DNA from: a virus
Strand: one strand, 5' to 3'
Virus record (IMG/VR): IMGVR_UViG_3300031227_000475
Span: 1-22,328 of that record
Length of the DNA: 22,328 nt
In this document: positions 1 through 19,170 of the stretch, piece by piece
How positions within the stretch are numbered: the stretch's first letter is position 1
Layout of the letters: each line of letters begins with the position of its first letter
Made by a program: the position numbers and the translations under genes
Notes under the pieces: generated by a model
Seen by the model: the letters and a program-made list of their open reading frames with translations, nothing else
What the model was told of the DNA's origin: nothing
Database searches by the model: none

Positions 1-4
1 TTCA

Positions 5-1000: not shown

Positions 1001-1011
1001 TGTTTTTCACC

Positions 1012-1263
1012 TCACACATAATATTCTTCTCCATAATTGCTCATATCATAAGACGCAACCATAGTCATATACTTTACGCCACCAGAATAATAGTAGTGGG
1101 TCATATAGTGTATATTAGCTCGACCAGCAATATCCTGCGAAGTCTGCACAGCACCGGCAGTAGCATCATCTGCCTGTGCCCCCAAAGCATTCCACTTATT
1201 AACCAGCTTCATTGCGTCAGTTTCGTGTGCAATGTCCTGATCTGAATCGTATGCTATCCTCAT
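1012..1263 (-). CDS. Small tail-module protein of unknown function (83 aa)
   Basis: GGGAGA lies seven bases before the ATG and the gene fits tightly between its neighbours, so it is probably real. The first half is likely helical (DIAHETDAMKLVNKWNALGAQ). The second half is Tyr- and Met-rich (IHYMTHYYYSGGVKYMTMV) and probably beta-stranded. No family is recognised. Its stop codon overlaps the Shine-Dalgarno of the next gene. Position suggests a minor tail protein or chaperone for the tail tip. Confidence 0.75.
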   Translation of the reverse strand: MRIAYDSDQDIAHETDAMKLVNKWNALGAQADDATAGAVQTSQDIAGRANIHYMTHYYYSGGVKYMTMVASYDMSNYGEEYYV

Positions 1264-1275
1264 CGAGCTATCTCC

Positions 1276-3984: not shown

Positions 3985-3986
3985 AG

Positions 3987-6900
3987 TTAATACAACCCCG
4001 ATTGCTGAACTCTGCGGCTAGCTTTGCCCCCACCTGGATGGGTGCCTTGTCCATATTCAATGTCAAGACCTGGAGGGGTAGAAACATGGAAATAGACATC
4101 CGTGCTTGGTGGTACTCCCCCTCCCGTTGCACCTACTCTTTCCCCAAGCGTGGGCACCCGCATCGGAGGAACAGCGGGACCCCAACCAATTGCTTTTCGT
4201 TGGTGAGGAGTTAATGGATAGCCTTGCCGTCTCTCAGCCTCTCTCGCCCCAACACCAACTCCCACATCTCGGCCAATGCCAATAGCACCCCTCATCAGCC
4301 TTTCTGCTAACAGTATTTCAGGACCAAGAAGTCTTGTTAATATTCCACCAGTCCGAGGGCCAAGTCCCTCAATAACTTCCGCAGCTCTCGAACCTGCTAC
4401 TGCTTGCCTTGATGCTAATTCACGCGCTGCCATTTCTTTAGCCACAGCGCTTGACCCCGTTCGCGGCCCTCCACCCGTAAAGAATCCTTTAATAGTATCC
4501 CAAATTGGCCTGAGCTTTCCACCGAGCTTTCCAACAAAGTCGCTTGCTGATAGCACCAGCTTTTTAAGTCTCCCCGCAAATTTTATTACCCCCATAATCC
4601 CTTCCGTTATAGCCTGTTTAGCCAACACCAACTTGAACAAAAGAGTTAAGGAAAAATATGTGATTACCACCTTCCATATATTAGAACTTTTCCATAAGTT
4701 CTCAATAGCCCTTCCAATGCCCGAAACAAAACCCCATATCCTAGTGAAGAAACATCCTATCCTAGTGAAGAAACCTTTCGCAGTATTCTCAGCGGCGTCT
4801 TCCTCGGGGGAAGGAACACCTCCTACTTTCTTAGCCGCCTCCAACGATTCTCTGTTTCTCCGCTGCAATGGTGTTTCAGTTGTCGGTAGCACCGCCCCAC
4901 CTGCCCCTAATGGCATACCAGCAGGCGCATATGTATAACCTGGTGGGCCTTGAACATCCCCTGAACTGAGCATAACACGACCAGCGGCTCCCAACGCCTC
5001 CTCTCTAGTAGCTTCGTGCTCTCTATAATACCTCCGCCATGCACCCGCCTTCGCCACCTTTTCCTCCATGGCCCTTAACGGCCCTCCTACCCTTTCACCA
5101 ATTGACTCAATAGCATCTTTGGCTTTCTCTGCTGCTTCTGCTGCCCTCCCGAACATTTCCGTCTTCTCTACATCCCCCATTGCGGAAGCAACCTCACGGG
5201 CAGCTTCCACCGCACCTTGGAGCACTGTCAACACTGCACCACCTATTGTCAATATAAGACTTAGATATGTACGAAAAACACCAATAGCAGCAGGAGCGTG
5301 GTCAATAATAAACTCCATAACTGTCATCATTATGCCTTGGATACCATCAACCTTTTTATACCACACATCAAACTTATCGCCGATACGACCCAGCCAATCA
5401 GAAATTATAGAAAGCATTGGCTCTATTCTTTCTGCAAACCACATAAAAACTGGCCGTAGTCGTTTTGACCACTGCGTGAACTGGGCAGCAATCCTCTGAG
5501 CCATTGGGCTTAACTCTCGTTCGCCCGTACTTGTTATTCTCATAATAGCATCTCTAACCATTATCAGAGCGTCAGTTATCGGGCGGAGAAATCCAATATC
5601 CTTCAATTCCTTGCCAAACCTAGCCCAAAGGTCAGACATATCATCCACCACGGCCTTATAGGTATTGCTAGTCGCCTTAGCCATCCCTCCATAACGAGCC
5701 TGAATCAAATTGAGAATTGCTACAAGGTTCTGGGCTTGTTGCTCTGGTGTCTTCCCTACCAAAGTCCCTCCTGGGCCTGCTACACCCCCGTAATTAACAA
5801 CTTGCTGTGGCATTATGCCATAAGTCCGACGCAATGACATAAAGAACCCTGTCGAGGCCTTCATTACGGCGGCTCCTGCATCCTCAACTGACTGACCAAA
5901 CATTGCCGCCAAATCCATTATTCCAGGCATAACTCTCTCAACAGCGTCTGGGCCGAGCTTGGGAAGAAACTCCACCCCCAAAGCCTGTACCTTCAGCATA
6001 GCATTGGCAATATCTGTCCAGACAAATCTCAACCCAACTGCCGTATCCATCGCCCATTTCATCATCCCAGACCCTGCTGCACCACCAAAAAGCCCACGCA
6101 TCCGCAGTTCCAACATTTCAATCTCAGCAGATATATTTATCAACGAGCCGATAAGCTGCTTGGCGTAACCCAGAACTCGCTGAAACCCTGTAACCATCCC
6201 ACGAACCAAATCTGTAAATGGGCGCACAATATTACGAACAGCATACATAATGGACAGACCTGCCCAATATATGTGCATAAACCCAACAACAACATTTCTG
6301 GCACCCTTCGCCATACCTCCTAATATTGCCAATCCACCACGTGCTACTCCTGCAATACTCATCTTCTTACTTGCCTTGGCATACTCTTCCATAGCACGAG
6401 CATGCAATGCCACCATCTTCCGCTCTGCTCGTTCTCTTACAGCAAAGTCCTTTACCATCTCTTGCCTAGCCTTAATACGAAGCTGGGCTTCCTTTATCGT
6501 TACCTGCTTCCTCGCAGCAAAATCCTTTACCATTTCCTGCCTAGCCTTAATACGGAGTTGACCATCCTTCACCATTACCTGCTTCCTCGTAGCAAAATCC
6601 TTTACCATCTCTTGCCTAGCCCTAATACGAAGCTGACCTCCCTTTACAACTTCCTGTTCTCTTGCAGCAAAATCCTTTACCATTTCCTGCCTAGCTTTAA
6701 TACGGAGCTGGCCTTCCTTTACCATTACCTGTTCTTTTGCAGCAAGTTCCCCATCCATTTGTTGCTTGGCTCTAATACGAAGCTGCCCCTCCTTTACAAC
6801 CGCCTGTTCTTTTGCAGCAAATTCTTTATCCATTTGTTGCTTGGCTGTAACACGGAGTTGACCCTCCTTCTGCCCAGCCACTGCTCGCGCATCAATATTC

Positions 6901-7346
6901 TTAAGTAAAGCATGGCTATACGCAACCAACTGTCGCTGATGAGCAACCCCAACACCAATAGACCGAGCCTCTGTGGTATTACCCAGTTCTACCGCATTCC
7001 GGCGGTCTCGCTCCAACGATACCGCTTTGTTCTGGGCCGCATATAATCTTTGCAGCATCATCTCCCTGGCTCGTTCAGTCAATGTAGATTTAAGAGTACC
7101 TGCCATGAGTGCTTGGCGAGCCAAGCGCAAATGCTCCGTTCGTGCCGCAACACCCGCCAAGCTCCGTTGTTGCCTATCCAATGCCCCAGTCTGCCTAGTA
7201 CTCTCCTGTGTGGTTCCACCACCACCACCACCAGCAGCACTACCCGTAGTGCCACGAGCACCACTGCTAAGCCGCTTCATTTGCTGCATAGCCTGAGAAA
7301 TATTAGCTGTAACAGTCATCCCAAGATTTACACTTGCATCAGGCAT
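3987..7346 (-). CDS. Tape measure protein
   Basis: The 1119-residue protein sets tail length and is probably injected ahead of the DNA. It begins with a short region containing a Gly run (residues 39-44), then long charged helices. Six tandem 25-residue repeats follow (residues 160-309) of the type KEGQLRIKARQEMVKDFAAR. Next come hydrophobic helices (about 329-375 and several later, including LSLILTIGGAVLTVLQGAV and VVITYFSLTLLFKLVLA), as in other tape measures. The C-terminal 120 residues are Gly-, Pro- and Arg-rich. With the usual 0.15 nm per residue, the length predicts a tail of roughly 165-170 nm. GGTGA lies five bases before the ATG, overlapping the stop of the preceding gene. Confidence 0.93.
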   Translation of the reverse strand: MPDASVNLGMTVTANISQAMQQMKRLSSGARGTTGSAAGGGGGGTTQESTRQTGALDRQQRSLAGVAARTEHLRLARQALMAGTLKSTLTERAREMMLQRLYAAQNKAVSLERDRRNAVELGNTTEARSIGVGVAHQRQLVAYSHALLKNIDARAVAGQKEGQLRVTAKQQMDKEFAAKEQAVVKEGQLRIRAKQQMDGELAAKEQVMVKEGQLRIKARQEMVKDFAAREQEVVKGGQLRIRARQEMVKDFATRKQVMVKDGQLRIKARQEMVKDFAARKQVTIKEAQLRIKARQEMVKDFAVRERAERKMVALHARAMEEYAKASKKMSIAGVARGGLAILGGMAKGARNVVVGFMHIYWAGLSIMYAVRNIVRPFTDLVRGMVTGFQRVLGYAKQLIGSLINISAEIEMLELRMRGLFGGAAGSGMMKWAMDTAVGLRFVWTDIANAMLKVQALGVEFLPKLGPDAVERVMPGIMDLAAMFGQSVEDAGAAVMKASTGFFMSLRRTYGIMPQQVVNYGGVAGPGGTLVGKTPEQQAQNLVAILNLIQARYGGMAKATSNTYKAVVDDMSDLWARFGKELKDIGFLRPITDALIMVRDAIMRITSTGERELSPMAQRIAAQFTQWSKRLRPVFMWFAERIEPMLSIISDWLGRIGDKFDVWYKKVDGIQGIMMTVMEFIIDHAPAAIGVFRTYLSLILTIGGAVLTVLQGAVEAAREVASAMGDVEKTEMFGRAAEAAEKAKDAIESIGERVGGPLRAMEEKVAKAGAWRRYYREHEATREEALGAAGRVMLSSGDVQGPPGYTYAPAGMPLGAGGAVLPTTETPLQRRNRESLEAAKKVGGVPSPEEDAAENTAKGFFTRIGCFFTRIWGFVSGIGRAIENLWKSSNIWKVVITYFSLTLLFKLVLAKQAITEGIMGVIKFAGRLKKLVLSASDFVGKLGGKLRPIWDTIKGFFTGGGPRTGSSAVAKEMAARELASRQAVAGSRAAEVIEGLGPRTGGILTRLLGPEILLAERLMRGAIGIGRDVGVGVGAREAERRQGYPLTPHQRKAIGWGPAVPPMRVPTLGERVGATGGGVPPSTDVYFHVSTPPGLDIEYGQGTHPGGGKASRRVQQSGLY
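6420..6869 (-). repeat. Six tandem 75-bp repeats in the tape measure gene
   Basis: Six units of exactly 75 bp encode 25-residue helical repeats with the core GQLRIKARQEMVKDFA. Odd and even copies differ consistently (plus strand CGGAG in copies 1, 3 and 5, CGAAG in 2, 4 and 6; QVMV ends copies 2 and 4). A 150-bp dimer therefore appears to be the unit that was amplified. The copies nearest the N-terminus (1 and 2) have diverged most. Confidence 0.93.
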
Positions 7347-7351
7347 CTAAA

Positions 7352-7933
7352 TCACCATGCCATTTTATACCAATAGTGGCCTGCGTTTCTCTTAAGGTGT
7401 GCTACAAACTTATCAACAAAGTAATCATTCTTGTTATGCAAAAATGAATGAGGGCCGGGAGCGACAGTGATAAATGGAAGATAATCAGGACTCTGCTTAT
7501 AGCCAGCCTCAGTCGGCTCTGGAAGTCCAGGTCTTATCTGGCGAACATACCTACGCAGCTTCTTCCTCCATTTTGTATTGGGACTTTTACCATATAACCA
7601 TACTCGGTGAGGCTTTGCGCCAGCTTCCATTCCCCAAATATAGCTGAATGGATCATACTTCTGAACAGGCTCCCCTTTAACCAACAATGCCCCACTTTCG
7701 CCTATACGGACTTGGTATGTGTCTCTGGAAAGTACAGTCAGTGGAAATACTCTCAGGTCCTCCCGAAGACTACCTTCAAATATAGGTGCATCCATCTTGG
7801 ATTGCTCTAGTGTGGCATTTGCAGATGAAACCAATCCACGAGCCACCTCAGCACCAAATGCCCGATTAAACTGCTGAGGCAGAGAGTTTATCCATCGTAA
7901 ACTTCGATTGTCCCACCGAATGCTAATCTGCAT
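7352..7933 (-). CDS. HK97 gp10-like (neck/tail completion) protein
   Basis: The 193-residue protein carries the family signature DAPIFEGSLREDLRVF (a variant of 'aPv.TG.LR.si'), then a strand QVRIGESGALL and YIWGMEAGAKPH, matching the '..Y...vE.G..PH' part of HK97 gp10-like proteins. It ends with a helix (DYFVDKFVAHLKRNAG). The start is placed at ATG 7933-7931, nine bases after GGTGGAG; the GTG at 7948, adjacent to the previous stop, overlaps that Shine-Dalgarno. Family members usually lie with the neck genes before the tail tube. Here the gene sits between the chaperone and the tape measure, so its role may differ. Confidence 0.68.
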   Translation of the reverse strand: MQISIRWDNRSLRWINSLPQQFNRAFGAEVARGLVSSANATLEQSKMDAPIFEGSLREDLRVFPLTVLSRDTYQVRIGESGALLVKGEPVQKYDPFSYIWGMEAGAKPHRVWLYGKSPNTKWRKKLRRYVRQIRPGLPEPTEAGYKQSPDYLPFITVAPGPHSFLHNKNDYFVDKFVAHLKRNAGHYWYKMAW

Positions 7934-7948
7934 AGCAAAAAACTCCAC

Positions 7949-8380
7949 CTATTGCCGATACTTGGACTTCATTGCTTTGGCCTTACCTGCACTGTACGCC
8001 TGCCAAATTGACATGCGCCAATATGCTATTCTATTCCAAGGCAAGTTATCCGGCGAGAGGTGCAGTTCGTAAAATATCTCGGCTTCTTCGACCCTGTGAT
8101 AAAGAAAGTTCGCAATTCTCCGCTCAAGGTATGTCGCATCTATCTCTGGGTCAGTCTCTTTCAATAACTGACCGTGCTGAGCAAGATACTCGCGGTACTT
8201 TACTTTATCAAGTCGGCCTTCCTCAGTGCGAAACCGAGGATCTTCTTTGGCCTGAATCTCGTTTATAAGAGTAGCGGGTTCCTTCTTCGTTAGCTCTGCG
8301 TCTGCCCCATTCTGGACAACTATCCCCAACACCGAATACTCAGCATCAGACACCGCTGCCCTTCCCACCCGCTCGGCTAG
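7949..8380 (-). CDS. T part of tail assembly chaperone GT (made by -1 frameshift from G)
   Basis: This frame continues gene G after the slippery site, giving a GT fusion of about 327 residues (184 from G plus 143). A GTG at 8368 could be read as an independent start, but no Shine-Dalgarno precedes it, so the frameshift is the likelier route. The T part is helical and charged (TYLERRIANFLYHRVEEAEIF, near residue 80 of the free frame) and ends KAKAMKSKYRQ. In lambda the T domain contacts the tail tube while the G domain binds the tape measure. The stop codon TAG is followed immediately by the next gene's ribosome-binding site. Confidence 0.82.
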   Translation of the reverse strand, partial: LAERVGRAAVSDAEYSVLGIVVQNGADAELTKKEPATLINEIQAKEDPRFRTEEGRLDKVKYREYLAQHGQLLKETDPEIDATYLERRIANFLYHRVEEAEIFYELHLSPDNLPWNRIAYWRMSIWQAYSAGKAKAMKSKYRQ

Positions 8381-8931
8381 TTTTTTAGTTCACTAACCAC
8401 AGCATCCTGGTCAGAGGTTATTGCAGCATTACCCTCTTCGTCTTCAACCTCTACCTGATCTTCTCCGAAGTAGAAGTCATTTATCATCTTAAACAGAATA
8501 CCTTGCAGACCGGGCATAATCTGAACGAGTAACTGCTTTTGCTCATAGGACTTCCGAGGCCACTTCAATACCTCAATCTCGCCCTTCTCGTTCAGCTTTG
8601 GAAATACCGCGTCCTTGATTAACCCATCTTCCACAACAGCACGCAGCATACCAAATGTGTCATAGCGTCGCTCTGTTACCATTTCGATTTTGCCATCGTC
8701 ATCAGCTTCATTACGAACAAGCTCTCGGATAAAGCGCGACTCCAGACTACTAAGCTCCTCTGCATTGGCTTCCTTAAAGACGACCCAGAATTCATCCCCA
8801 ATATCCTCACCTTCGGGGTGACGACTGGACGGGGGGCCTGTCAGCGGAATTACCCCGCTGTCACCCAATTGGGAGCGCAAAGCTAACTTCCCTAAAATTT
8901 CCGCTCTCCTCTTATCGGTTAATTTTCCCAT
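8377..8931 (-). CDS. Tail assembly chaperone G
   Basis: The 184-residue acidic protein sits between tail tube and tape measure and ends at a -1 slippery site next to its stop codon, the hallmark of the G gene of the G/GT pair. The start is taken at the ATG 8931-8929 because GAGGAG lies seven bases before it; the TTG two codons earlier is too close to that Shine-Dalgarno. The protein has a helical N-terminus (KLTDKRRAEILGKLALRSQL), a central region with FWVVFKEANAEELSSLESRF, and an acidic tail (EDQVEVEDEEGN). G and GT coat the tape measure and help polymerise the tube around it; they are absent from the finished virion in lambda. Confidence 0.85.
   Translation of the reverse strand: MGKLTDKRRAEILGKLALRSQLGDSGVIPLTGPPSSRHPEGEDIGDEFWVVFKEANAEELSSLESRFIRELVRNEADDDGKIEMVTERRYDTFGMLRAVVEDGLIKDAVFPKLNEKGEIEVLKWPRKSYEQKQLLVQIMPGLQGILFKMINDFYFGEDQVEVEDEEGNAAITSDQDAVVSELKN
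8380..8386 (-). other. -1 ribosomal frameshift site A AAA AAC
   Basis: On the minus strand the zero-frame codons CTA AAA AAC are followed at once by the TAG stop of gene G. The heptamer A AAA AAC fits X XXY YYZ exactly. Slipping back one base enters the frame CTA GCC GAG CGG GTG..., which is open through the next reading frame to its stop at 7949. A downstream stimulatory stem-loop was not convincingly found by eye. Confidence 0.88.
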
Positions 8932-9006
8932 TTTCAAGCTCCTCTGCTACCGGATTTTGTTATTGTTCTCTGATTATCTATTATTTACTCTCTGTACTCA
9001 TTCGTC

Positions 9007-9330
9007 TTAGTCTTTCAACTTTGCCTGCGCTTCGTTCATAGCCGGTATAACGATGTATTTCCGAATTTCGTCATACCTTTTACTGGGCACATCTGCTCCA
9101 TTAGTTGTGTCCTTATGCTGCTTTAACTTCTCAAGCAGCAGTCCATTCTCCTGAGACCCAATCGTGAATGTACATCTAGGCCTCCTGCCCTGCTTCTGGA
9201 GACTATCGGGCAAAGGCTGTGCCTTCGTCCCGTTCAAGAAAATACCATCAAAACAGAGCAGCGTACAAACCAAGTTCATATCAGTCGTTGTAAATGTGAA
9301 TACAGTACGTTCTTCTGTCAGACTTGCCAT
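9007..9330 (-). CDS. Small tail-module protein of unknown function (107 aa)
   Basis: I do not recognise this family. The protein begins with a Thr-rich stretch (ERTVFTFTTTDMN) and has a hydrophobic segment with two Cys (LVCTLLCFDGIFL). Its C-terminal half is probably helical (LLLEKLKQHKD and IPAMNEAQAKLKD). The position between tail tube and chaperone G suggests a tail-assembly or minor tail function. The start is preceded only by AT-rich sequence with several ATG triplets and a weak ribosome-binding site. The 69 bases after its stop hold no feature apart from the ribosome-binding site of the next gene. Confidence 0.7.
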   Translation of the reverse strand: MASLTEERTVFTFTTTDMNLVCTLLCFDGIFLNGTKAQPLPDSLQKQGRRPRCTFTIGSQENGLLLEKLKQHKDTTNGADVPSKRYDEIRKYIVIPAMNEAQAKLKD

Positions 9331-9356
9331 TATTCATCATTCATTTCTAAATATCA

Positions 9357-10328
9357 CTATGGTGTCGTAAGTGTGATAGGTGCAGTCGCACCGTCATCGC
9401 TTCCCAACGCAGTAAAGTCAGATTCAACTTTGATCCTACTGCGGTTATCCCCAGGATAATCATTCCGAGGGTCCATCCAACGAACACGGGACATTAGCAG
9501 ATTAAGGGTAATACCGCCACGAAGAAGAGCTATGTTTATCTGACCATCATAACTCGTACCAAATGTGTCATCTAGCTGAGACCGCCACTTGGTAAAGAAA
9601 TCACTGCCGCCCGCCTCGGGGATGTCTCTGGTAAATCGCCCAGTCACATCAGGCCCACCGAGATTATACAATACCCGAGGATTCCAACCACCATCCAAAC
9701 GCATCCCCTCACTGGGGTCTTCAAGGACATTATCAATACGGACTTCTATTTCCTCAAACTCATAATCAGCAGACAATGACCCAATTCCACCAACGTCCGT
9801 TGTAACGGTTGCCTCCTTGTAGATATACGGCCCGCCAGTAGTGACATCAACATCAGGCCCATTATAACTTGCATGCTCCTTACCAACCAACCCCAAAGTG
9901 AACTTAACAACCCCACCTTTAGTAAATGTGATGGTTGCTTCCCTCACCTTCACATCGATAATCTCACGGCTTTGGTATTCATCAACAAGGAACACCGTTG
10001 CGAACATACCTTGATTATACCCCATTGTGGTGCGGTCAGTAATCCAAGTAATCAAATCATCAAGACTGGCCTCTACTGCTTGCAAAGCAACGGGAACTCC
10101 CCCCTCAAACCACTGACCACTGGAAAACATCAGGTGGTTATAATCAGTATAATCCGCCTGTTGGTAAATCTCAGCATTGCCCATTCGCGCTAAATCAACT
10201 GTGTCATTAAATGGGAGCCAGTTGGTATCAGCAGCATCTTCAGAAGCTGACCCCTCAGTGGTCTGGAGAGCAAAACCAAATCGAACGTGTTTACTTAAAC
10301 TAGGACCAACTGTTAGTAACATAGCCAT
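9357..10328 (-). CDS. Tail tube (major tail) protein
   Basis: The 323-residue, beta-rich protein lies before the chaperone and tape measure genes and has one of the two strongest ribosome-binding sites of the window, as expected for a tube subunit made in hundreds of copies. Segments such as AVEASLDDLITWITDRTT, VREATITFTKGGVVKFTLGL and EFEEIEVRIDNVLED fit the tube fold, in which a helix packs on a beta sandwich. A strand near the C-terminus (GGITLNLLMSRVRWMDPR) probably belongs to the same sandwich. At 323 residues it is larger than a minimal tube protein, so it may carry an extra surface domain. No separate sheath gene is present, so the tail is most likely non-contractile. Confidence 0.75.
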   Translation of the reverse strand: MAMLLTVGPSLSKHVRFGFALQTTEGSASEDAADTNWLPFNDTVDLARMGNAEIYQQADYTDYNHLMFSSGQWFEGGVPVALQAVEASLDDLITWITDRTTMGYNQGMFATVFLVDEYQSREIIDVKVREATITFTKGGVVKFTLGLVGKEHASYNGPDVDVTTGGPYIYKEATVTTDVGGIGSLSADYEFEEIEVRIDNVLEDPSEGMRLDGGWNPRVLYNLGGPDVTGRFTRDIPEAGGSDFFTKWRSQLDDTFGTSYDGQINIALLRGGITLNLLMSRVRWMDPRNDYPGDNRSRIKVESDFTALGSDDGATAPITLTTP

Positions 10329-10336
10329 AATATTTT

Positions 10337-10353
10337 ACCTCCTTCCTTTCTTA
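10337..10353 (-). promoter_or_regulatory. Strong ribosome-binding site of the tail tube gene, copy of the capsid gene's
   Basis: The minus strand reads TAAGAAAGGAAGGAGGT followed by AAAATATT and ATG. It is identical over 17 bases to the leader of the capsid gene at 15347-15363, including use of the upstream stop codon TAA. Confidence 0.85.
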
Positions 10354-11166
10354 TGCTGGTGTTGCAGCCTTATCGGTAATCGCAATCCTCTTCGCTTCTA
10401 TATAAATATCTCCCCAATCAATCTGTGTACCTAAAGCAGTTGCCACCTCTCGATCAGCGCCTGGTCCCGTCACTCGCCCCGCCGTTGGCACTAGTTGCAT
10501 TGGTCTACTAAGATAAGAGTCATAACAAGTACCTCCCAACGTATAATCCTCCCCAAGCAAAGTGGCCAATGTCTCCATTTCACCTACAATAGTCTGCCTG
10601 TCATATCCATCACCCATCAAACGGGCGTATCGTACAATAATACTGTAAGTATCAATCCATTGAGTATTAGTCAAATCATCACGATTCACCACCCCGCCGA
10701 ATACCCAAATGGCGGGAAACCACCTGTCTTGTGGTTGTGTTGGGCCTAAAGCAAGGAAATCCTGTTGGACTAATTTCAAGGAACTGCACAAGGATGGCAG
10801 CGTGTAAAGTCTTACATAGGCCCCACGAGCCACCGTATATGCGTGAGTTATCCCACTTGTAGCGTAGAGATGCCATTCTTTCGTGCCTAATTTGCTTGTA
10901 TTGATAGTAATAGTCTCTTGGTGCTCGATGCTATTAGGCTCATCAACTGCGTTAGGTTGGACTATAATTGCCTTGCTGGTAGTTTCCAGTGGGTTATTAT
11001 ACCAAAGAAACGTACCCACAATCCCCAAACCAGCATCGTCTCCTGTAAACTCTTCCCCAACACATAATTCAGTGTCACTTATAGCAGCGTTCTGCTTCAA
11101 TAGAACGCGGCCCAAGCAGAGATTTCTAGCTCCTTCAAATGGATTTATGGTGTAAGTAGGTCGCAT
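10351..11166 (-). CDS. Probable tail terminator/completion protein with N-terminal beta extension
   Basis: The 271-residue protein lies directly before the tail tube, where the tail terminator is normally encoded. Its C-terminal half (from WIDTYSIIVRYARLMGDGYD to DIYIEAKRIAIT) has the length and alternating helix-strand pattern expected of a small terminator that caps the tube. The N-terminal half is beta-rich (NAAISDTELCVGEEFTGDD, VGTFLWYNN, TITINTSKL). It resembles the insertion domain of the preceding stopper-like protein, suggesting a related accessory domain. The ATG follows the stop of the previous gene by one base (TAAAATG), so translation is probably coupled; the ribosome-binding site is weak. 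Confidence 0.55.
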   Translation of the reverse strand: MRPTYTINPFEGARNLCLGRVLLKQNAAISDTELCVGEEFTGDDAGLGIVGTFLWYNNPLETTSKAIIVQPNAVDEPNSIEHQETITINTSKLGTKEWHLYATSGITHAYTVARGAYVRLYTLPSLCSSLKLVQQDFLALGPTQPQDRWFPAIWVFGGVVNRDDLTNTQWIDTYSIIVRYARLMGDGYDRQTIVGEMETLATLLGEDYTLGGTCYDSYLSRPMQLVPTAGRVTGPGADREVATALGTQIDWGDIYIEAKRIAITDKAATPA

Positions 11167-11167
11167 T

Positions 11168-11758
11168 TTACAACATTCCCGCTACGCCTATTATCTCTCT
11201 CAACGTAACTACCTGGTAGGGACCGAGGGCATCATACGGTGTCCTCCGTGCAATAATCCTATAAAATCTGCAAGCGTATATAGTCGACCCTGCGTCAAAG
11301 TCACTTTCAAGTGCATTTATGCCATAGATGGTCAACTCATTAGTATCCACGGACTTTATCTTGCAAAGCTGAACAGTCGCACCTGACTTTATAGAAATCT
11401 GATCGCCAGAAGCAAACCCAGTATCGGTAACAACAGATAGAACAGTATCGTCGATAACAGCATCAGATGAAATAGTAGTAGTAACAGCTTCCCGCACCCC
11501 CTCCAAAACACGAGGCTTTTTAACGGTCATAAAATATCCCAAAGCTAAATCCACATTTGGTTCTGCCCAAAACTCAGCAGTTACCTCAACAAGTCCCTCA
11601 TTAGCCATCATCAACGACTCTTCGTCGGGAAATATCCGTCCCATCTTATCTTCCCCATAAATATCAGATGTGTCCAATACCACCGACAGGTTATGCCGCT
11701 GGTCTGGCGAGTTGGAGTATAACCTGTATGGATTTGATCTCATCCAAATCTTTGACAT
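11168..11758 (-). CDS. Probable head-closure (stopper) protein with inserted beta domain
   Basis: The 196-residue protein follows the adaptor and precedes the tail terminator, the normal place of the stopper that seals the head. The flanking parts (residues 1-89, with VVLDTSDIYGED and EVTAEFWAEPNVDLALG, and residues 164-196, FYRIIARRTPYDAL) would together make a small stopper of about 120 residues. Between them is an insertion of about 75 residues with the pattern DDTVLSVVTDTGFASGDQI, KIKSVDTNELTIYG and DFDAGSTIYA. This resembles the small beta domain ('t.L.v....F..GD.i.i') that recurs in many phage structural proteins. GGAG lies eight bases before the ATG, overlapping the adaptor stop region. 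The role is assigned by order; the insertion is directly visible. Confidence 0.6.
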   Translation of the reverse strand: MSKIWMRSNPYRLYSNSPDQRHNLSVVLDTSDIYGEDKMGRIFPDEESLMMANEGLVEVTAEFWAEPNVDLALGYFMTVKKPRVLEGVREAVTTTISSDAVIDDTVLSVVTDTGFASGDQISIKSGATVQLCKIKSVDTNELTIYGINALESDFDAGSTIYACRFYRIIARRTPYDALGPYQVVTLREIIGVAGML

Positions 11759-11762
11759 TGCG

Positions 11763-12545
11763 CTAACTCCACATCACTTTCGATGACATAGCATATGACC
11801 CGACATGCCCAGCATCCGCAGTGAGCGTCTTAGGGAACCGATACCGCAAACATGCCTCTAACGCAGCCGCTTCCAACCTCTTTATGTGAGGACCATACTG
11901 GCCTTCGCTTCCTAGTCTGATGTTCAAGCCTTCGTACTTCAGGCTCGTGGTGCCACCTGGAACAATTCCATCCTCACTGTCAGCGGCGCTTAACTGACTC
12001 AGAATGTCTGCTGCTACTTTCCTCGCCTGAGCTACACGAATATCATAGGGAGGAGTCTCATAGCCCCACGTTATGGTCATAGCAACATTTTGGGTTCCCA
12101 AAAGGAAAAATGGGCTGGAACGACCAGTAGTGTACTTAATGGTGGAGAGGGTTTCAACAGGCCTTATCCGACCATCCGAGTAATACTTATAATCATCAGC
12201 ATCTTCGTCGCTGCCAGTAATAACGAGGTCTGAAACAGAAAGTAGGGGAACAAAATTGAACTGGCTCAAGTCCTGACAATCCAAACCGCTACCATCTACT
12301 GCTATATCAACAGCCTCATGGTAATCAAAATCGTGCCCAGCCTTCCCATCAGTCCACATTCGGGCATCGGGAATAAGAAACCGAATAGTTTCATCACGAT
12401 CAGTACCGCTGAGCCAACTCCCCAATGTCTCATAGGCAGCATCCACAGCCACTCGCCGAAGAACTGTCAGAACATCATTAACAGTACAATACCGCTCATC
12501 CGACAATCCAGAAACTTCATTATCAGCAGCCCTAGTAGTTGACAA
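11763..12545 (-). CDS. Head-tail adaptor (connector) protein, HK97 gp6-like
   Basis: The 260-residue protein would bind the portal as the first ring of the neck. Support comes from position (between head genes and stopper) and from the layout of such adaptors: an N-terminal helical part that begins YCTVNDVLTVLRRV and an alpha-helical C-terminal part (RVAQARKVAADILSQLSAAD). Between them lies a beta-rich central insertion that includes YYSDGRIRP and MTITWGYETPP. The start is a TTG at 12545-12543, supported by GGAGGTG seven bases upstream. It overlaps the end of the glycosyltransferase gene by 14 bases, suggesting translational coupling. At 260 residues it is longer than simple gp6 proteins. Confidence 0.65.
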   Translation of the reverse strand: MSTTRAADNEVSGLSDERYCTVNDVLTVLRRVAVDAAYETLGSWLSGTDRDETIRFLIPDARMWTDGKAGHDFDYHEAVDIAVDGSGLDCQDLSQFNFVPLLSVSDLVITGSDEDADDYKYYSDGRIRPVETLSTIKYTTGRSSPFFLLGTQNVAMTITWGYETPPYDIRVAQARKVAADILSQLSAADSEDGIVPGGTTSLKYEGLNIRLGSEGQYGPHIKRLEAAALEACLRYRFPKTLTADAGHVGSYAMSSKVMWS

Positions 12546-13788
12546 GTTCCAACACCTCCCCCAACTTCTCCAGTATTAGTTCGTCGGGAATCTGCTCCAG
12601 ACATTGTGCTGGCGGAGCACAAACTTTATATTGGTGCGAATTACAAGGCGGGCAGCCACAAAATCTATTACCCTGAATTACTGTACAGTTTGGCTGGTCT
12701 ACAATCCTTAACTTGCTATCCACATGCCCGTATAATGCAAGTGTAGGCTTGCCAAGGGCATTAGCCAAGTGAGTCGGGCCTGTGTCCCCGGTCAAAACAG
12801 CATCGCAAGCATCCATAACAGCTATAAGCGTTCCAGTATCAGTCTTGCCTGTCAAGTTGACCACACCGGCCATATCCCAAGTAGTGTCGTGCTGGGAATG
12901 CAAACACACGGGGGTCATACCATCATCCACCATTTTTCCCAATATCCCCTTTAATTTCACAGCCGACATCATCCTCATCCAATTTGCTCCCTTAACACTA
13001 ACAGCGACCAACGGGTGCTTGTCTGGTAGGAGTTTGGTCGCATTTTCTGCCCCCACAAAAACTGGCATCCGATAGTCATCCAGCTTATCAATACCTACCA
13101 AAACCCCAAATAAATCTGGTCGGGGGATTTCACCTTGTTGTGGGTGGCTTTCAACAGTGCGACCAGATGAATAAGTCCAGTCAACGATGTAGTTATAAGG
13201 ACGATAATTGTAAGCACCGTCCAAATCAACCACTCTCGTTACCGCTGGATTATTAAGAAGAAGTCTCCTATTATGTGGGGCACAGGCGTAAGTAATCTCA
13301 CAAGCTGGGCATATTCGCTTCAATGTTGAAAGTGCAGGCAACGAAAGAAATATATCACCCAATCCCCCCGTCCTAATTATCAAGATACGCATACTCAAGC
13401 GGGTTGTCGGCATTGCAGAATAGACTGCTATTACATCAATCAGCGGGACCTCACTGAAACCCCCCCGCTTTTTAAGAACTTTGAATATATAAAAAGGAAC
13501 ATCATAGAGCTTCCCGTGTTCATACTCCTCATAATACTCACGATTCAGCACAGGGTCATCAAAACGAACCCTGGCCTGCGACCCTTTACAATCACAAAGA
13601 ACTATTTTACTACCAAGTGGCTCCTTTTCCCTAAGTATACAGCTATCATTGGACATAAGATAGGCCAAATCTGATGGATTGGTCACCTCAGTCCATTCAC
13701 CCGCTGTAAAAGTATAGGGCTGGGAAACCGGGCCACCGGCGGCGACATGGTAGGACCTGGCTCCAAATGGGGTAAGAGAAACACTCAT
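12532..13788 (-). CDS. Fusion of a small phage domain with a family 9 glycosyltransferase
   Basis: The 418-residue protein has two parts. Residues 1 to about 130 are phage-like and include YTFTAGEWTEVTNPSD (25-40), matching a segment of the preceding 157-residue protein. Residues 133-418 are a GT9 (ADP-heptose:LPS heptosyltransferase-type) GT-B enzyme. It has MRILIIRTGGLGDIFLSLPA at its N-terminus, with the conserved Asp at 145, and the donor-site signature LTGDTGPTHLANALGKPTLA (332-351). Its C-terminal Cys cluster (CGCPPC, C390, C396) and PDELILEKL are also seen in many GT9 proteins. All hallmark motifs are present, so it is probably active. No Shine-Dalgarno precedes Met133, so the fusion appears real. 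It sits between capsid and adaptor genes; the substrate is unknown, perhaps a virion protein. Confidence 0.88.
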   Translation of the reverse strand: MSVSLTPFGARSYHVAAGGPVSQPYTFTAGEWTEVTNPSDLAYLMSNDSCILREKEPLGSKIVLCDCKGSQARVRFDDPVLNREYYEEYEHGKLYDVPFYIFKVLKKRGGFSEVPLIDVIAVYSAMPTTRLSMRILIIRTGGLGDIFLSLPALSTLKRICPACEITYACAPHNRRLLLNNPAVTRVVDLDGAYNYRPYNYIVDWTYSSGRTVESHPQQGEIPRPDLFGVLVGIDKLDDYRMPVFVGAENATKLLPDKHPLVAVSVKGANWMRMMSAVKLKGILGKMVDDGMTPVCLHSQHDTTWDMAGVVNLTGKTDTGTLIAVMDACDAVLTGDTGPTHLANALGKPTLALYGHVDSKLRIVDQPNCTVIQGNRFCGCPPCNSHQYKVCAPPAQCLEQIPDELILEKLGEVLELVNY

Positions 13789-13792
13789 CCCA

Positions 13793-14266
13793 TTACTTGT
13801 CCTTTCTATCTATCATCCCATCAGCCCCCACCGTTTCAGTTGTTATCCCAACAGACTGTTTGGGCTTACCTATGTCAACGTCTATATCAGATTCGGACTC
13901 ATCCCTCCCCGCCCCCAGTTGACCGTTCTCAAGCATTTCCTTAAGTTGGGCCAACACAGTAGGACTGGTCAAATCCAAAGGCTTATCAGTATCAGGCCGC
14001 CCAGTTTCAAACATGGGAACTTGAACAACCTGTCTGGCCTTAGGGCGACCAGGTACATTAGTCATTATCCCCTGAAAGGTCTCAAAATCCTCGTCAGTGG
14101 TCACACGCTGGGCCTTGCCCTTCTCGAATCTATATATTCGATATAAGACCTTATCCGAGCCAGGACTTGAAACCTTTTCAGATACAGAAGGTATCGACAA
14201 AGTTTGAGGGTGGAAATCCGTTACCGGAATGTACAACCATCCACCCTTTTTATTTTCATTTGCCAT
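13793..14266 (-). CDS. Head-module protein of unknown function (157 aa)
   Basis: I do not recognise a named family. The start is supported by AGAGGA nine bases before the ATG. The N-terminal half looks beta-rich and includes Y-x-F-x-x-G-x4-V-T-x3-D (residues 45-60), a pattern that recurs with identical spacing in the N-terminal domain of the next protein. Residues 97-117 (LDLTSPTVLAQLKEMLENGQ onward) match a segment near the C-terminus of the terminase. The C-terminal 40 residues are acidic and look disordered. Its place between the capsid gene and the head-completion genes suggests a head component such as a decoration or vertex-associated protein, or an assembly factor, but this is inference only. 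Confidence 0.8.
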   Translation of the reverse strand: MANENKKGGWLYIPVTDFHPQTLSIPSVSEKVSSPGSDKVLYRIYRFEKGKAQRVTTDEDFETFQGIMTNVPGRPKARQVVQVPMFETGRPDTDKPLDLTSPTVLAQLKEMLENGQLGAGRDESESDIDVDIGKPKQSVGITTETVGADGMIDRKDK

Positions 14267-14283
14267 TTCTGTTCATCCTCTCT

Positions 14284-14304
14284 TTAATTATTTCAGGTAA
14301 TTAA
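14284..14304. repeat. AT-rich inverted repeat after the capsid gene
   Basis: Perfect 7-base arms TTAATTA and TAATTAA flank a 7-base spacer in the short gap between the capsid stop codon and the next gene. The stem is only A-T pairs and has no adjoining U-tract, so it is a weak hairpin at best. It might mark an mRNA processing point or mean nothing. Confidence 0.3.
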
Positions 14305-14307
14305 CTG

Positions 14308-15339
14308 CTAGTACGCAACTGACAGGGCTGGGTCAACTTCCGGCAGTACATTACGGGCCACTACTACTGCATCAATGTTGCGATACTGTACATCAAATTC
14401 GCCCCACCAAGAGTAGTATTGGACCTTGCCGTCAGACTGACGTAGGCCAAGATGGAAAATCATCTCAGGGCCATATCCAACTACCATATTACCGCGCTCA
14501 ACCAACAGAATAAATGTATACTCACTTGACGAATCGGACTGGGTGAGCACACCAGACACATCAGTTGGAATTGCGGGTACTGGAGTAATCGGAACGCCAG
14601 CAAAGGACAAGTCTCCCTCTTGGGTCATTGATAGGTCACCAAGGGGGGTTGTGCGCCTTGCCAAGTAATCACGATATTCAATAGCCAATAGATCACTGAC
14701 ATAGTAACGGAAGTCACCCTTTTTAGCGGCATTAAACCGCCACTTGGCCGGTAATTCCTTCCACATGTCCTTAAAGACCTGAGGATTGATATACCCACCA
14801 GCGTGATCAACAACATGACCAGAACTGGCTTTAGTCGACCATCCATCAATGGTGGTCCTATTGCCTGTGGCATAATCATCGGGATTAGTGCCACCGACTA
14901 CTGCGTTGATACCAATATCCTCAAAGTTATTGGCCATTGACTTACGGACGGCGACATCCACATCATCAGCCAACTGCCCTCGCGCAATGTTATAACGGGG
15001 CAGATGAGTAGCCTCGAAGTCATAGCGGAGATCGGCAGTCTGGGGGTTAAGATTGCGCCCCCCAAACGTGGGTGTCACCTGGTCATCATCACTCACTTCC
15101 TCAGTGTAATCCAATCCCATTGCCATTCGGCCATCGGGAATGTCGATGTTAGCCAAGTCAATGTTAGGTGCGGTTAGTACCAAGTGGGTAGCATCCTTCA
15201 GCATAACTGAAGTATCAACAGTTAAATCAATAAAACTGCTGAGCTGCTCCCCATGCAGATGAAGATAATCCGTATCTGCGGTGGTGCTAGTAACTGACTT
15301 ATTTATGTACTGTTGTGCGGTCATTATCTGACTAGCCAT
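14308..15339 (-). CDS. Major capsid protein (HK97 fold)
   Basis: The 343-residue protein lies directly after the protease and scaffold, has the strongest ribosome-binding site in the cluster, and has the expected length for an HK97-fold capsid protein. Several stretches fit: a central segment with DLLAIEYRDYLARR and the GDLSFAGVPITPVPAIP loop (a typical 'G.P...vp.iP' element), and the C-terminal strand region FILLVERGNMVVGYGPEMIF followed by WWGEFDVQYRNIDAVVVARN. These resemble the P-domain and A-domain strands of capsid proteins. No N-terminal delta domain is fused, which agrees with a separate scaffold. The fold is inferred from position and motif pattern rather than a clear match to one named phage. 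Confidence 0.85.
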   Translation of the reverse strand: MASQIMTAQQYINKSVTSTTADTDYLHLHGEQLSSFIDLTVDTSVMLKDATHLVLTAPNIDLANIDIPDGRMAMGLDYTEEVSDDDQVTPTFGGRNLNPQTADLRYDFEATHLPRYNIARGQLADDVDVAVRKSMANNFEDIGINAVVGGTNPDDYATGNRTTIDGWSTKASSGHVVDHAGGYINPQVFKDMWKELPAKWRFNAAKKGDFRYYVSDLLAIEYRDYLARRTTPLGDLSMTQEGDLSFAGVPITPVPAIPTDVSGVLTQSDSSSEYTFILLVERGNMVVGYGPEMIFHLGLRQSDGKVQYYSWWGEFDVQYRNIDAVVVARNVLPEVDPALSVAY

Positions 15340-15363
15340 TTTACAAACCTCCTTCCTTTCTTA
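15337..15363 (-). promoter_or_regulatory. Strong ribosome-binding site of the capsid gene, shared with the tail tube gene
   Basis: The minus strand reads TAAGAAAGGAAGGAGGT (15363-15347) then TTGTAAA and ATG. The leading TAA is the stop codon of the protease/scaffold gene. The same 17 bases precede the tail tube ATG (10353-10337), again using the upstream gene's TAA. Confidence 0.85.
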
Positions 15364-15993
15364 AGATGAAACAGACTTTATATGTCGTGTCAATATATGC
15401 GCTACATCACCAGAATCACCATTGCCCCCAGATTCAGTTCCCTGAGGAACTTGAGTTGAAACTCCCCCCGCCTTCGCAAGGGAAGCAACGGAATTAGACA
15501 AGGAATTCATCCGCACTTCCTGCTCTTCCTGGTCTGCCTTGTTCTTAGTGAGTTGCTTGAAAATTTCCCCCAGACTCTCCCCGATGCGTCCAAGGTCAGA
15601 ATCTTCCGCTGTCTCGGCCTGTTCGTCTTTGGCATCAGACTTCTCAACAGGCTCCTTAATCTCATCCTCGCTCTTACCCTTAGCCTCTTCCACAGACTCC
15701 TCACTGGCCTCGGATTTATCGGCCTTATCGGATTTATCCTCATCTTCGGACTTCTCTACACTATCGAGTCTCTTGCCCAACGAGTCAATCTTCTCAACTA
15801 ACGAAGCAAGAACATCAACAATGTTTGGCTCATCCTCGACCTTAGCAACTTCAACATTCTCCTCAGCATCAGCCCGTTCAACATTCTCGTCTACTACTTC
15901 ATCCTCAGTGCTAATGCCCAGAAGACCGCGTAGACTTGTCAGTAGGGTCTCGGCAAGACCCTGCCTAGCTTTACTAACTTGATTCTCATCCAT
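15361..15993 (-). CDS. Nested in-frame scaffold protein (internal start in the protease gene)
   Basis: An internal ATG at 15993-15991 (residue 343 of the protease, MDENQVSKARQ) is preceded on the minus strand by GGAGGTGTACCAGTAATG, a near-perfect Shine-Dalgarno eight bases before the ATG. This ribosome-binding site looks stronger than that of the full-length protein. The product would be 210 residues, acidic, with a coiled-coil segment (LVEKIDSLGKRLDSVEKSE) and a second helical region near the C-terminus. It lacks the protease and zinc-ribbon parts. Lambda Nu3 is made in this way from within gene C and acts as an internal capsid scaffold in excess over the protease fusion. Here the sequence signal is seen and the function is inferred. 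It is followed immediately by the capsid gene. Confidence 0.78.
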   Translation of the reverse strand: MDENQVSKARQGLAETLLTSLRGLLGISTEDEVVDENVERADAEENVEVAKVEDEPNIVDVLASLVEKIDSLGKRLDSVEKSEDEDKSDKADKSEASEESVEEAKGKSEDEIKEPVEKSDAKDEQAETAEDSDLGRIGESLGEIFKQLTKNKADQEEQEVRMNSLSNSVASLAKAGGVSTQVPQGTESGGNGDSGDVAHILTRHIKSVSS

Positions 15994-17019
15994 TACTGGT
16001 ACACCTCCTTCGTTCACTTCATCCGATTCGTCGAAACTACCCTTTTCCACATCTTCACTTTCTAGCATAGCTTCAGCTCCCTCTTCCGCCTTCTCCTCTG
16101 CAACATCAGCCTTGTCCGTTTCCGGCCTAGCCATCTTAGCTCCACATTTAGAGCATTCCAATTCGTAACAGGGAGCACCTGTCTCATGCTTTTGCTCATT
16201 GCCACATTCAGGGCAAACACAGACACTACCTGGGCCAAGCCCTTGACCCTCAGGTTGTCTGCCCATTGTCTCAGCTGCCTTAAAGATCATTCCAGTCCAA
16301 TCACTCATACCCTTCTCTGCTCCAGACGGACTAATCCAAGTATCCTGATTGAGTGCTGAATTAGACGAGCAGAGCAATACATGCTGTAGCTCAACCTCGT
16401 TTATCTCACTTACTGCACGGCCAGTCTGTGCATCGTAGCTCCGCTTGACTGCTCCCTCCGGCAATCTCCCCGAAATGGAGAGCTTCATTGTCTTTCGCCT
16501 TTCATCATCCAATAAATCCTCGTAGACTGTCTGAGCAAATGGGTGGGATTTCTTCAACTGGCCCGCTATTCGGAAAACACTAAGGTCATCATCAGTTATT
16601 TCAGGTCGACACCACCCGATGCGAGAAACAATACTAACTTCACCTTCTTGGTGACTACCCGCTGTAACCAGAGGGATAATTCCGGTATTCCTCATAGACT
16701 GAATTGCCTGCTCAGTAACCCTGTCGCCGGTCTTGTCAATCACTGAAGACGATGCCTGGCCTACAAAATTGAGTTGGTCATCTGCGTCTACACTGGCCTT
16801 TTCAATCGAAGCGACAAATGAAAATGTTCCTGTCATTTCAACACGCTCCAAGTTAAACTTTTCCTTCACCATTCTATGTGTAGTAGCGATGGCTATGCCC
16901 TCGTCCATATCGGGATTTTCACGCAACATCCCATTTAGAACGCGAAGGGCATACTTACGTTGCTCTGGGCTGTAGTTCTTAAATACATCGGGAAGTTGTG
17001 ACACGCTGTCATATGGCAC
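15361..17019 (-). CDS. Prohead maturation protease with C-terminal scaffold region
   Basis: The 552-residue protein has a ChaB-like N-terminal helical segment (SQLPDVFKNYSPEQRKYAL, residues 7-25), followed by an XkdF/HK97-type prohead serine protease domain. Candidate catalytic residues are His123 in SHQEG and a Ser in LSISG (181 or 183). The strand INEVELQHVLLCSSNSALN (206-224) resembles the family's usual strand before the PAN-like motif. Residues 265-295 hold a zinc-ribbon-like pair, CPEC (269-272) and CSKC (289-292). From about residue 300 it becomes very rich in Glu, Asp, Lys and Ser with coiled-coil character, as expected of a scaffold or delta region. The start is a GTG with a weak ribosome-binding site; an in-frame TGA lies two codons upstream. 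Genes C and Nu3 of lambda are organised in the same way. Confidence 0.88.
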   Translation of the reverse strand: MPYDSVSQLPDVFKNYSPEQRKYALRVLNGMLRENPDMDEGIAIATTHRMVKEKFNLERVEMTGTFSFVASIEKASVDADDQLNFVGQASSSVIDKTGDRVTEQAIQSMRNTGIIPLVTAGSHQEGEVSIVSRIGWCRPEITDDDLSVFRIAGQLKKSHPFAQTVYEDLLDDERRKTMKLSISGRLPEGAVKRSYDAQTGRAVSEINEVELQHVLLCSSNSALNQDTWISPSGAEKGMSDWTGMIFKAAETMGRQPEGQGLGPGSVCVCPECGNEQKHETGAPCYELECSKCGAKMARPETDKADVAEEKAEEGAEAMLESEDVEKGSFDESDEVNEGGVPVMDENQVSKARQGLAETLLTSLRGLLGISTEDEVVDENVERADAEENVEVAKVEDEPNIVDVLASLVEKIDSLGKRLDSVEKSEDEDKSDKADKSEASEESVEEAKGKSEDEIKEPVEKSDAKDEQAETAEDSDLGRIGESLGEIFKQLTKNKADQEEQEVRMNSLSNSVASLAKAGGVSTQVPQGTESGGNGDSGDVAHILTRHIKSVSS

Positions 17020-17235: not shown

Positions 17236-17298
17236 AAACCAAATCCCATCTTTATTAAAATCTTATACAATATTGACGATTAGGCTGCTTCGTATTTA

Positions 17299-19170
17299 TT
17301 ACTCGTCATCGTCCCCATCATCCTCCGCTGCTGGTATAAATCCTATCATATCCTTCAATCCGAAATCGTCCAATATCAACGCCATCTCCTGTTGCTCTTC
17401 CGGCTGTAATTGCCCAACTGCCAGAGCATTGAATAATGCCTTACTGGTATTTGGTAACTGAAAAATTGGTGCGGAGCTTGGAGGAGTCTTCATTTGGCTA
17501 GACACAATGGGGGACGGCTTGCCTTTACCATCCTTGTCATCCTCGGGCATAACACCAACATTCATCTCAACAACTCTTTTGACCAAGCTAACTGGCAGAA
17601 ATCCCACGCCCAATGAATTGAGCAACGGTTCATCCCCACCATCAACTGGAGGTCGTCCATAGAACCTACGAACCTCGTTTATGCTAAGCACACCTCTTCC
17701 CATCAGTGTCGAAAGTATCTGTGCCCGCTCCAGTTCGGATATGAGTTCTGGCACTGCAAGGTCCATCACTACATCATCTACCCCAAGGTCTTCCCGAAAG
17801 ATGTAGTTAATCCTCGTCTCTATTCTTCGCTGCTCTGGGCGCACCACATTCGACAGGAACCGCCAATTTGCCTCTTGACTAACCGCCCTGTTAAGGCCCA
17901 TAAGAGACGCAATAATACTGGGCGGTACACGATGTGCCCTCATCATTCTCTCATCACAAAGAACACGAAATTCATTAAACCCTGATTCCTGCAATTGGGA
18001 AACAGAAAGGTCCCACTTCTCAATCGTAACATCAGTACCAGGAACCTCTATTATCAAAACTTGGTTCAGCGCATCAATTTGATTCTGCTCATTCATCCAC
18101 TGCTGAATTGACTTTGTTACCTTAGATGTCAGCTCCCCCCCACGAACAATAATAGCTAAGCGGGGAACCGTAGCATTCTCAAAGTAATTTGCATTAAACT
18201 GTGCAGAATACTTCGCGCCAAACAAATCATAAACAGCAGAAAGAGTATCTGGTTCACCATATACAGTATCTTTCGCCGTGCCCTTCATCATAGAAAGTAG
18301 CTCATTTACCTTCTCGGCAGTCTCATCATTTTCTTTATCAATCGCCTTACCAAAAAGACTCGCATCAATCCCATCAGATGTAGTTCCCCAACGAACTGGT
18401 ACATCTATCAAACTATCATTTCCCCGTCCGCTGCCTAGAACTTGCTTCACCCGCCGCACCTTTACAGCTTTTGGCCTGGACTTACCATCAGCAGTATATT
18501 TCGTATAGAACCTCCGCTCGCCTCCACGAAGCTGTAGATACCCTGAACCATCTTTCAGATGGCGGATAGTAACAGCCTTGCAGGGATACATACCATCTAT
18601 ATTACCATCAGTGTCCCGTGAGAGTTCAATAAACCCCTGACCTATAGTCTCTAAATCTCTCCACATAGAAGCAAGCATATCAGGAAATGGGTAATCTGGC
18701 ATCCCCAAAGACAAAAACTTCTCAGCCTTTTCCAATTGATTCTGTATGTCCTTGGTGTCTTTGACAGAACTGGAGTCGGTCCCATACAAGTCCGCCATCG
18801 GCGCAAGGGATTGGTCTAATACAGCAAGCTCCCAACGAGGCCTAATCTTATATCCTTGCTGACAGATATTTACAACCTTGGCTTCAATGCAAGCATGAAT
18901 GGTGGGTTCGTCAGCAAGGGTAACATAAGTATTTGGGTCCACAGGCGGAGTAGACACTGCCCCATAACGGTCATAAGCATCAACAGTCCTCTGCTGCTCC
19001 TTTCCTATCTGGGTAGAACCAGATGCTATACCCTCCGCCTTGCTCACCATTGATATTGCTTGGCCGCGAGGTGTATCAGAAGAGAACTTATAAATATGGG
19101 CATCGACATTGCCGTGCTTGGATTCTATCTGTTCGCTACGAAAATCTTCAATCTCAGTATTATCCGACAT
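17299..19170 (-). CDS. Portal protein (HK97/PBSX-type)
   Basis: The 623-residue protein would form the dodecameric DNA-entry ring at one capsid vertex and dock the terminase. Family features are visible: ADEPTIHACIEAKVVNIC near residues 86-103, the core strand LETIGQGFIELSRD (173-186), and the C-terminal RVPPSIIASLMG followed by a helical stretch with VRPEQRRIETRIN. These match the PF04860-type portal fold. The C-terminal region is proline- and serine-rich and ends in a strongly acidic tail (EDDGDDDE). The length is at the long end for the family. The gene starts 14 bases after the terminase stop, with only a weak AGGGA upstream, so it is probably co-transcribed with terminase. No clear terminator follows its stop at 17299. 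Confidence 0.93.
   Translation of the reverse strand: MSDNTEIEDFRSEQIESKHGNVDAHIYKFSSDTPRGQAISMVSKAEGIASGSTQIGKEQQRTVDAYDRYGAVSTPPVDPNTYVTLADEPTIHACIEAKVVNICQQGYKIRPRWELAVLDQSLAPMADLYGTDSSSVKDTKDIQNQLEKAEKFLSLGMPDYPFPDMLASMWRDLETIGQGFIELSRDTDGNIDGMYPCKAVTIRHLKDGSGYLQLRGGERRFYTKYTADGKSRPKAVKVRRVKQVLGSGRGNDSLIDVPVRWGTTSDGIDASLFGKAIDKENDETAEKVNELLSMMKGTAKDTVYGEPDTLSAVYDLFGAKYSAQFNANYFENATVPRLAIIVRGGELTSKVTKSIQQWMNEQNQIDALNQVLIIEVPGTDVTIEKWDLSVSQLQESGFNEFRVLCDERMMRAHRVPPSIIASLMGLNRAVSQEANWRFLSNVVRPEQRRIETRINYIFREDLGVDDVVMDLAVPELISELERAQILSTLMGRGVLSINEVRRFYGRPPVDGGDEPLLNSLGVGFLPVSLVKRVVEMNVGVMPEDDKDGKGKPSPIVSSQMKTPPSSAPIFQLPNTSKALFNALAVGQLQPEEQQEMALILDDFGLKDMIGFIPAAEDDGDDDE

Follow-up and report, generated by a model that had tools for sequence, protein, structure and literature searches.

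A conserved fusion of a GT9 glycosyltransferase with a small N-terminal domain in the head operon of tailed phages

What does a GT9 glycosyltransferase, joined to another small domain, do in the head operon of a tailed phage? Particles that carry sugars are known for a few phages, with the enzymes and the recognition of their acceptors mostly open; the GT9 class itself is well known and, to our knowledge, a GT9 fusion of this combination and in this place is new. The case analysed here lies in a 22,328-base IMG/VR contig (the window) that carries a tailed-phage late operon on its minus strand, and the phage may use the enzyme to glycosylate its own particle or the surface of its host while virions are being assembled. 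Several phages retain this permanent union of transferase and small domain among their head genes, which makes it a compact test case; such a fusion predicts that some head protein offers a docking site.

The fusion gene (positions 12,532–13,788, minus strand) is a single frame of 418 codons with no internal stops, encoding a compact N-terminal domain of about 115 residues with a two-repeat layout, a variable linker and, from residue 133, a GT9 glycosyltransferase (PF01075). The original prediction that a GT9 enzyme is joined here to about 130 other residues was borne out: the fusion recurs at full length in three further IMG/VR contigs, L002, L004 and L003 (76%, 57% and 38% identity, respectively), and none of the four copies contains an internal stop or a frameshift between the two parts. 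A comparison of the window with L002 gives a dN/dS of 0.17 for residues 1–120 and 0.11 for the GT part, indicating that purifying selection acts on both alike, and the linker of about 10 residues (30% identity, with in-frame indels) is the sole loosely constrained region. A Shine–Dalgarno-like AAAGGA stands upstream of the fusion start, whereas the internal ATG at residue 133 has no comparable ribosome site, and the L003 junction reads GCG-GGC-CGC where the other copies carry ATG. The absence of stops, the presence of AAAGGA at the fusion start only and the missing junction ATG in L003 argue that the GT9 enzyme and the N-terminal domain are translated as one polypeptide. Constraint on both sides of the junction, together with the lack of stops and of a start codon or ribosome site shared by all copies at the junction, rules out two genes or a frameshift; the same evidence speaks against an assembly artefact, which is ruled out by the origin of the four contigs in at least two metagenomes. 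At its end, the gene shares a 14-nt overlap (12,532–12,545, minus strand) with the TTG start of the next, adaptor-like gene, and an overlap is also found in L003 and L004, making three genomes.

The GT part (residues 133–418; 12,535–13,392, minus strand) has the appearance of a complete GT9 enzyme, presumably of GT-B fold. It matches PF01075 (E = 1.3e-13; score 51.3 bits, cut-off 22), as do the GT parts of the relatives, also above the cut-off, and its profile matches in the PDB are 3tov, WaaF (1psw) and WaaC (2gt1/6dfe). The NCBIfam heptosyltransferase I model is hit with E = 1.4e-15 but below its equivalog cut-off, and none of the lipopolysaccharide heptosyltransferase I, II and III equivalogs is reached (57, 43 and 43 bits for TIGR02193, TIGR02195 and TIGR02201, with cut-offs of 185, 135 and 170). 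In an alignment with Escherichia coli WaaC, WaaF, WaaQ and WaaU, residues D145, R223, D335, G337 and H340 fall on WaaC D13, R120, D261, G263 and H266. The three motifs that had been read from the sequence are all present as described, namely GGLGD with the invariant catalytic-base Asp145 (13,354–13,368, minus strand; placed by the WaaC alignment and a PDB profile match), the donor motif DTGPTH from Asp335 to His340 (12,769–12,786, minus strand; PF01075 and WaaC alignment), in which D, G and H are invariant and which reads DTG or DSG across the phage copies, and a four-Cys cluster, C379-x2-C382-x7-C390-x5-C396 (12,601–12,654, minus strand), invariant in all four copies, which likely forms a metal knuckle. 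Arg272 (12,973–12,975, minus strand), an Arg in all phage copies, occupies the place of the donor-phosphate contact Lys192 of WaaC; because the exchange is conservative and E. coli WaaU also lacks a Lys there in the alignment, it is no argument against GT9 as such. Ser9 and Ser10 of WaaC are not retained, and the N-lobe falls short of those of WaaC and WaaF by about 50 residues. The full-length structure model is poor (pLDDT 56), and its top Foldseek matches are all GT9 enzymes (E down to 1.6e-8), TibC among them; a loss of the GT-B fold, which would have spoken against the original prediction, was not seen in this weak model. Since the known GT9 catalytic residues are kept, the phage enzyme is probably active.

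Modelled alone with AlphaFold2, the N-terminal domain is predicted with pLDDT 86.5 and pTM 0.76 to fold into two units, residues 3–54 and 60–113, in each of which beta strands lead into a helix and then a further strand. The first repeat (residues 1–58; 13,615–13,788, minus strand; strands within residues 3–54, helix 38–46) contains the best-conserved stretch of the alignment, FxxGxWTEVTNPxDLxYLxS, and the second (residues 59–115; 13,444–13,614, minus strand) comprises strands in 60–98, a helix at 99–108 and a strand at 111–113. A further helix (116–124) leads into the variable linker, which ends in low confidence at residue 132 and carries in-frame indels between relatives (13,393–13,443, minus strand). 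Sequence similarity between the repeats is not significant; we therefore do not treat them as sequence-detectable duplicates, and the twofold character lies only in the predicted layout. Searches of PHROGs, Pfam, known phages, genomes, the PDB and BFVD gave no relative of the domain; Foldseek against the PDB and BFVD returned nothing below E = 0.4, and the best VIA-align rows, GINS B-domains at Z 5.5, are within chance range. By eye, the domain had seemed to resemble the small proteins encoded behind the capsid gene in many phages, but homology to the one in Streptomyces phages (phrog_9487) was rejected (not significant by hhalign, probability 0.1%). The original prediction had called this part phage-type and structural-type, a label that no sequence or fold match supports; with no relative detected, ‘phage structural domain’ stays a guess, and virion binding is a role that we infer. 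Of the GT9 fused to a structural-type domain in a head cluster, there remain a conserved fusion of a folded domain and an apparently active GT9, without the structural label.

The late operon runs terminase, portal, protease/scaffold-like protein, capsid, 157-aa gene, fusion, adaptor-like gene, tail genes and tape measure. The portal protein (17,299–19,170, minus strand) matches PF04860 (E = 1e-17) and phrog_12 (E = 1e-34), and the major capsid-type protein (14,308–15,339, minus strand) matches the virion structural protein family phrog_1623 (E = 7e-37) and, by tblastn, proteins annotated as major capsid proteins in Streptomyces and Rhodococcus phages. Between capsid and fusion lies the 157-aa protein (13,793–14,266, minus strand), which has no family match in profile searches. 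The head–tail adaptor-like protein (260 aa; 11,763–12,545, minus strand) has no family match by itself, but its L003 homologue (38% identical) matches phrog_442 (E = 3e-10), the same family as the adaptor of Braelyn. In all four contigs, the slot is the same, in the order capsid gene, small gene, fusion and adaptor-like gene, confirming the place between capsid and adaptor genes from which the original prediction started. The portal and capsid proteins are distantly related to their counterparts in Streptomyces Stanwilliamsviridae and Rhodococcus phage Trina, and because the related head modules of Braelyn and Trina run capsid, small gene and adaptor with no GT9 enzyme, the enzyme looks like an insertion into the head module; the base composition of the fusion gene matches that of its neighbours, which suggests a long-resident gene. 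Elsewhere in the window, the tape measure gene contains a tandem array of a 75-base unit (6,431–6,870; 5.9 copies, 79% matches) coding for charged, probably helical 25-residue repeats. The protease/scaffold-like protein (window 15,361–17,019; L002, 2,532–4,649; L004, 4,221–6,407) is about 150 residues longer in L002 and L004, where an extra domain that the window copy lacks adjoins a zinc-ribbon-like CPEC motif. Upstream of the terminase, a partial right-handed beta-helix-like protein (21,504–22,328; PF13229, E = 0.003, below the cut-off) is cut by the contig end.

How widespread is the combination? The three relatives came from a search of 2.9 million IMG/VR viral contigs, in which scans with the fusion, capsid, GT and portal as queries gave no further copies, and none was found in 85,000 genomes. 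Six contigs with more distant portals showed no GT9, though several are short fragments. Among known phages, GT9 matches were weak only, including those in a 595-kb uncultured phage and in Campylobacter phages, and plasmid-borne GT9 genes likewise gave only weak matches. The domain combination is real and conserved: it has four examples, and none was found elsewhere in the collections searched. The 48-kb L003 record (G001) carries a second GT9 gene (17,257–18,309, minus strand; 350 aa; PF01075, E = 8e-13) with its own N-terminal extension of about 60 residues and a CxxC..C..C cluster; it is a separate gene after the tail genes, directly downstream of a homologue of the window ORF at 5–1,000, where the window itself ends, and it is absent from the corresponding place in the L004 contig. 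By eye, the first 15,000 bases of the same record (1–15,000) hold genes for a DNA polymerase I type protein, a primase/toprim protein, an SbcC/SbcD-like pair, an amidase and a DNA methyltransferase, and a partial ORF upstream of the terminase in L003 (L003 positions 26–583, plus strand) resembles a GT2 glycosyltransferase, with no Pfam, PHROG or PDB match. PADLOC returned no anti-phage defence match, and the relatives contain no tRNA genes.

We tentatively favour, at somewhat under even odds, a late-expressed transferase docked by its N-terminal domain to an acceptor, most likely a phage head protein. The GT9 enzyme would be produced together with the head proteins; its C-terminal module would transfer a sugar from a nucleotide-sugar donor, ADP-heptose being the GT9 default; and the two-repeat domain would hold the enzyme to the capsid protein or to one of its neighbours, with glycosylation taking place during assembly. 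We infer transferase activity, donor, acceptor and docking role alike. The precedents of TibC and the mycobacteriophages, compared below, together with the place in the head operon, make head-protein glycosylation the most likely reading and a host glycan its main rival. In its favour, the slot is kept down to 38% identity, both parts are constrained, and the catalytic Asp, Arg, DTG and His are retained. Against it, the GT9 enzymes characterised so far mostly modify lipopolysaccharide, inspection of the 48-kb relative by eye revealed no gene for sugar-nucleotide synthesis, TIGR04414 gives no match, the full-length model reaches only pLDDT 56, and the N-terminal domain has no detectable relative.

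As the main rival, the enzyme would act late in infection on a glycan of the host surface (in the lipopolysaccharide core or the cell wall) and thereby keep released virions off debris or exclude other phages, the N-terminal domain serving only as an aid to folding or oligomerisation. The nearest named models belong to the ADP-heptose lipopolysaccharide heptosyltransferases that dominate GT9, and the second GT9 after the tail genes of the 48-kb relative is placed as in a multi-step glycan pathway; however, the scores fall far below every lipopolysaccharide heptosyltransferase equivalog cut-off, the constant head-module place and the overlap with the adaptor gene speak against it, and the conserved extra N-terminal domain is not found in E. 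coli WaaC or WaaF; we consider a host-glycan target less likely than a head protein. Fusion to another domain at a fixed place among structural genes, with Arg at the Lys192 position and without Ser9 and Ser10, could also mark a GT9 module that has lost sugar transfer and now serves the head–neck region as a structural or scaffolding component, but this is improbable given that copies with only about 40% identity all keep the catalytic Asp, the Arg120 equivalent, DTG/DSG and the His. Least probable is that the head-cluster place is a matter of chance and the target is phage DNA bases or another intracellular molecule. Phage glycosyltransferases are known to glucosylate DNA (PMC12619734), which speaks for such a target; against it, we know of no GT9 enzyme among the known DNA-modifying transferases, inspection by eye showed no gene for base hypermodification in the 48-kb relative, and the slot is conserved in four genomes.

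The phage fusion can be set against four known systems. The head modules of Stanwilliamsviridae and Trina share related portal and capsid proteins and the same order of capsid, small gene and adaptor, but their slot lacks the GT9, and their small gene (phrog_9487) is not significantly similar to the N-terminal domain. WaaC and WaaF (2gt1, 6dfe, 1psw) and the Veillonella GT9 (3tov) share with the phage enzyme the Pfam family, the GxGD Asp, DTG..H and the Arg120 equivalent; compared with WaaC and WaaF, the phage protein adds a 132-residue N-terminal extension and a four-Cys cluster, both absent from the E. coli enzymes, has a shorter N-lobe and Arg for Lys192, and is encoded in a phage head operon. 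A precedent for the target comes from mycobacteriophages whose capsid and tail-tube subunits are glycosylated (PMC11256854, PMC12619734). The virion-glycosylating transferases of Che8 and its relatives are phage-encoded and, in the accounts cited there, are proposed to act on these subunits; those of Maravista lie near the 3′ genome end and are not described as domain-fused, the comparison being one of published descriptions (PMC11256854, PMC12619734).

Closest in build are the TibC-type GT9 protein O-heptosyltransferases, which qualify the original view that GT9 enzymes stand alone: they too carry an N-terminal domain and a four-Cys (iron) finger (PMC4358343). TibC activity requires both, and deleting the N-terminal 80 or 95 residues abolishes it (PMC4358343). 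TibC/BAHT (4rap, 4rb4; PMC4358343) and the phage protein alike combine an N-terminal domain, a GT9 core with reduced N-lobe and CxxC..C..C. The Foldseek match to TibC (E about 1e-5) was obtained with the weak full-length model (pLDDT 56), and TIGR04414 (hepto_Aah_TibC) was not matched by the L002, L003 and L004 records at E ≤ 10 and is not listed for the window protein. Cys spacing is 2-7-5 in the phage protein and 2-15-11 in TibC, in the same order; the phage N-terminal fold is predicted as two strand–helix–strand repeats, whereas TibC has one eight-stranded barrel (two four-stranded sheets) and is absent from the listed fold matches of the phage domain; and no autotransporter is in sight for the phage enzyme, whereas the TibC family is characterised by a dodecamer and by heptose transfer to autotransporter Ser. 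That the docking-domain GT9 glycosylates the phage’s own capsid or neck proteins during assembly, as an independent phage analogue of the TibC-type enzymes, is a narrower proposal that we regard as possible but doubtful; the nearest solved enzyme of like build is TibC, a protein O-heptosyltransferase.
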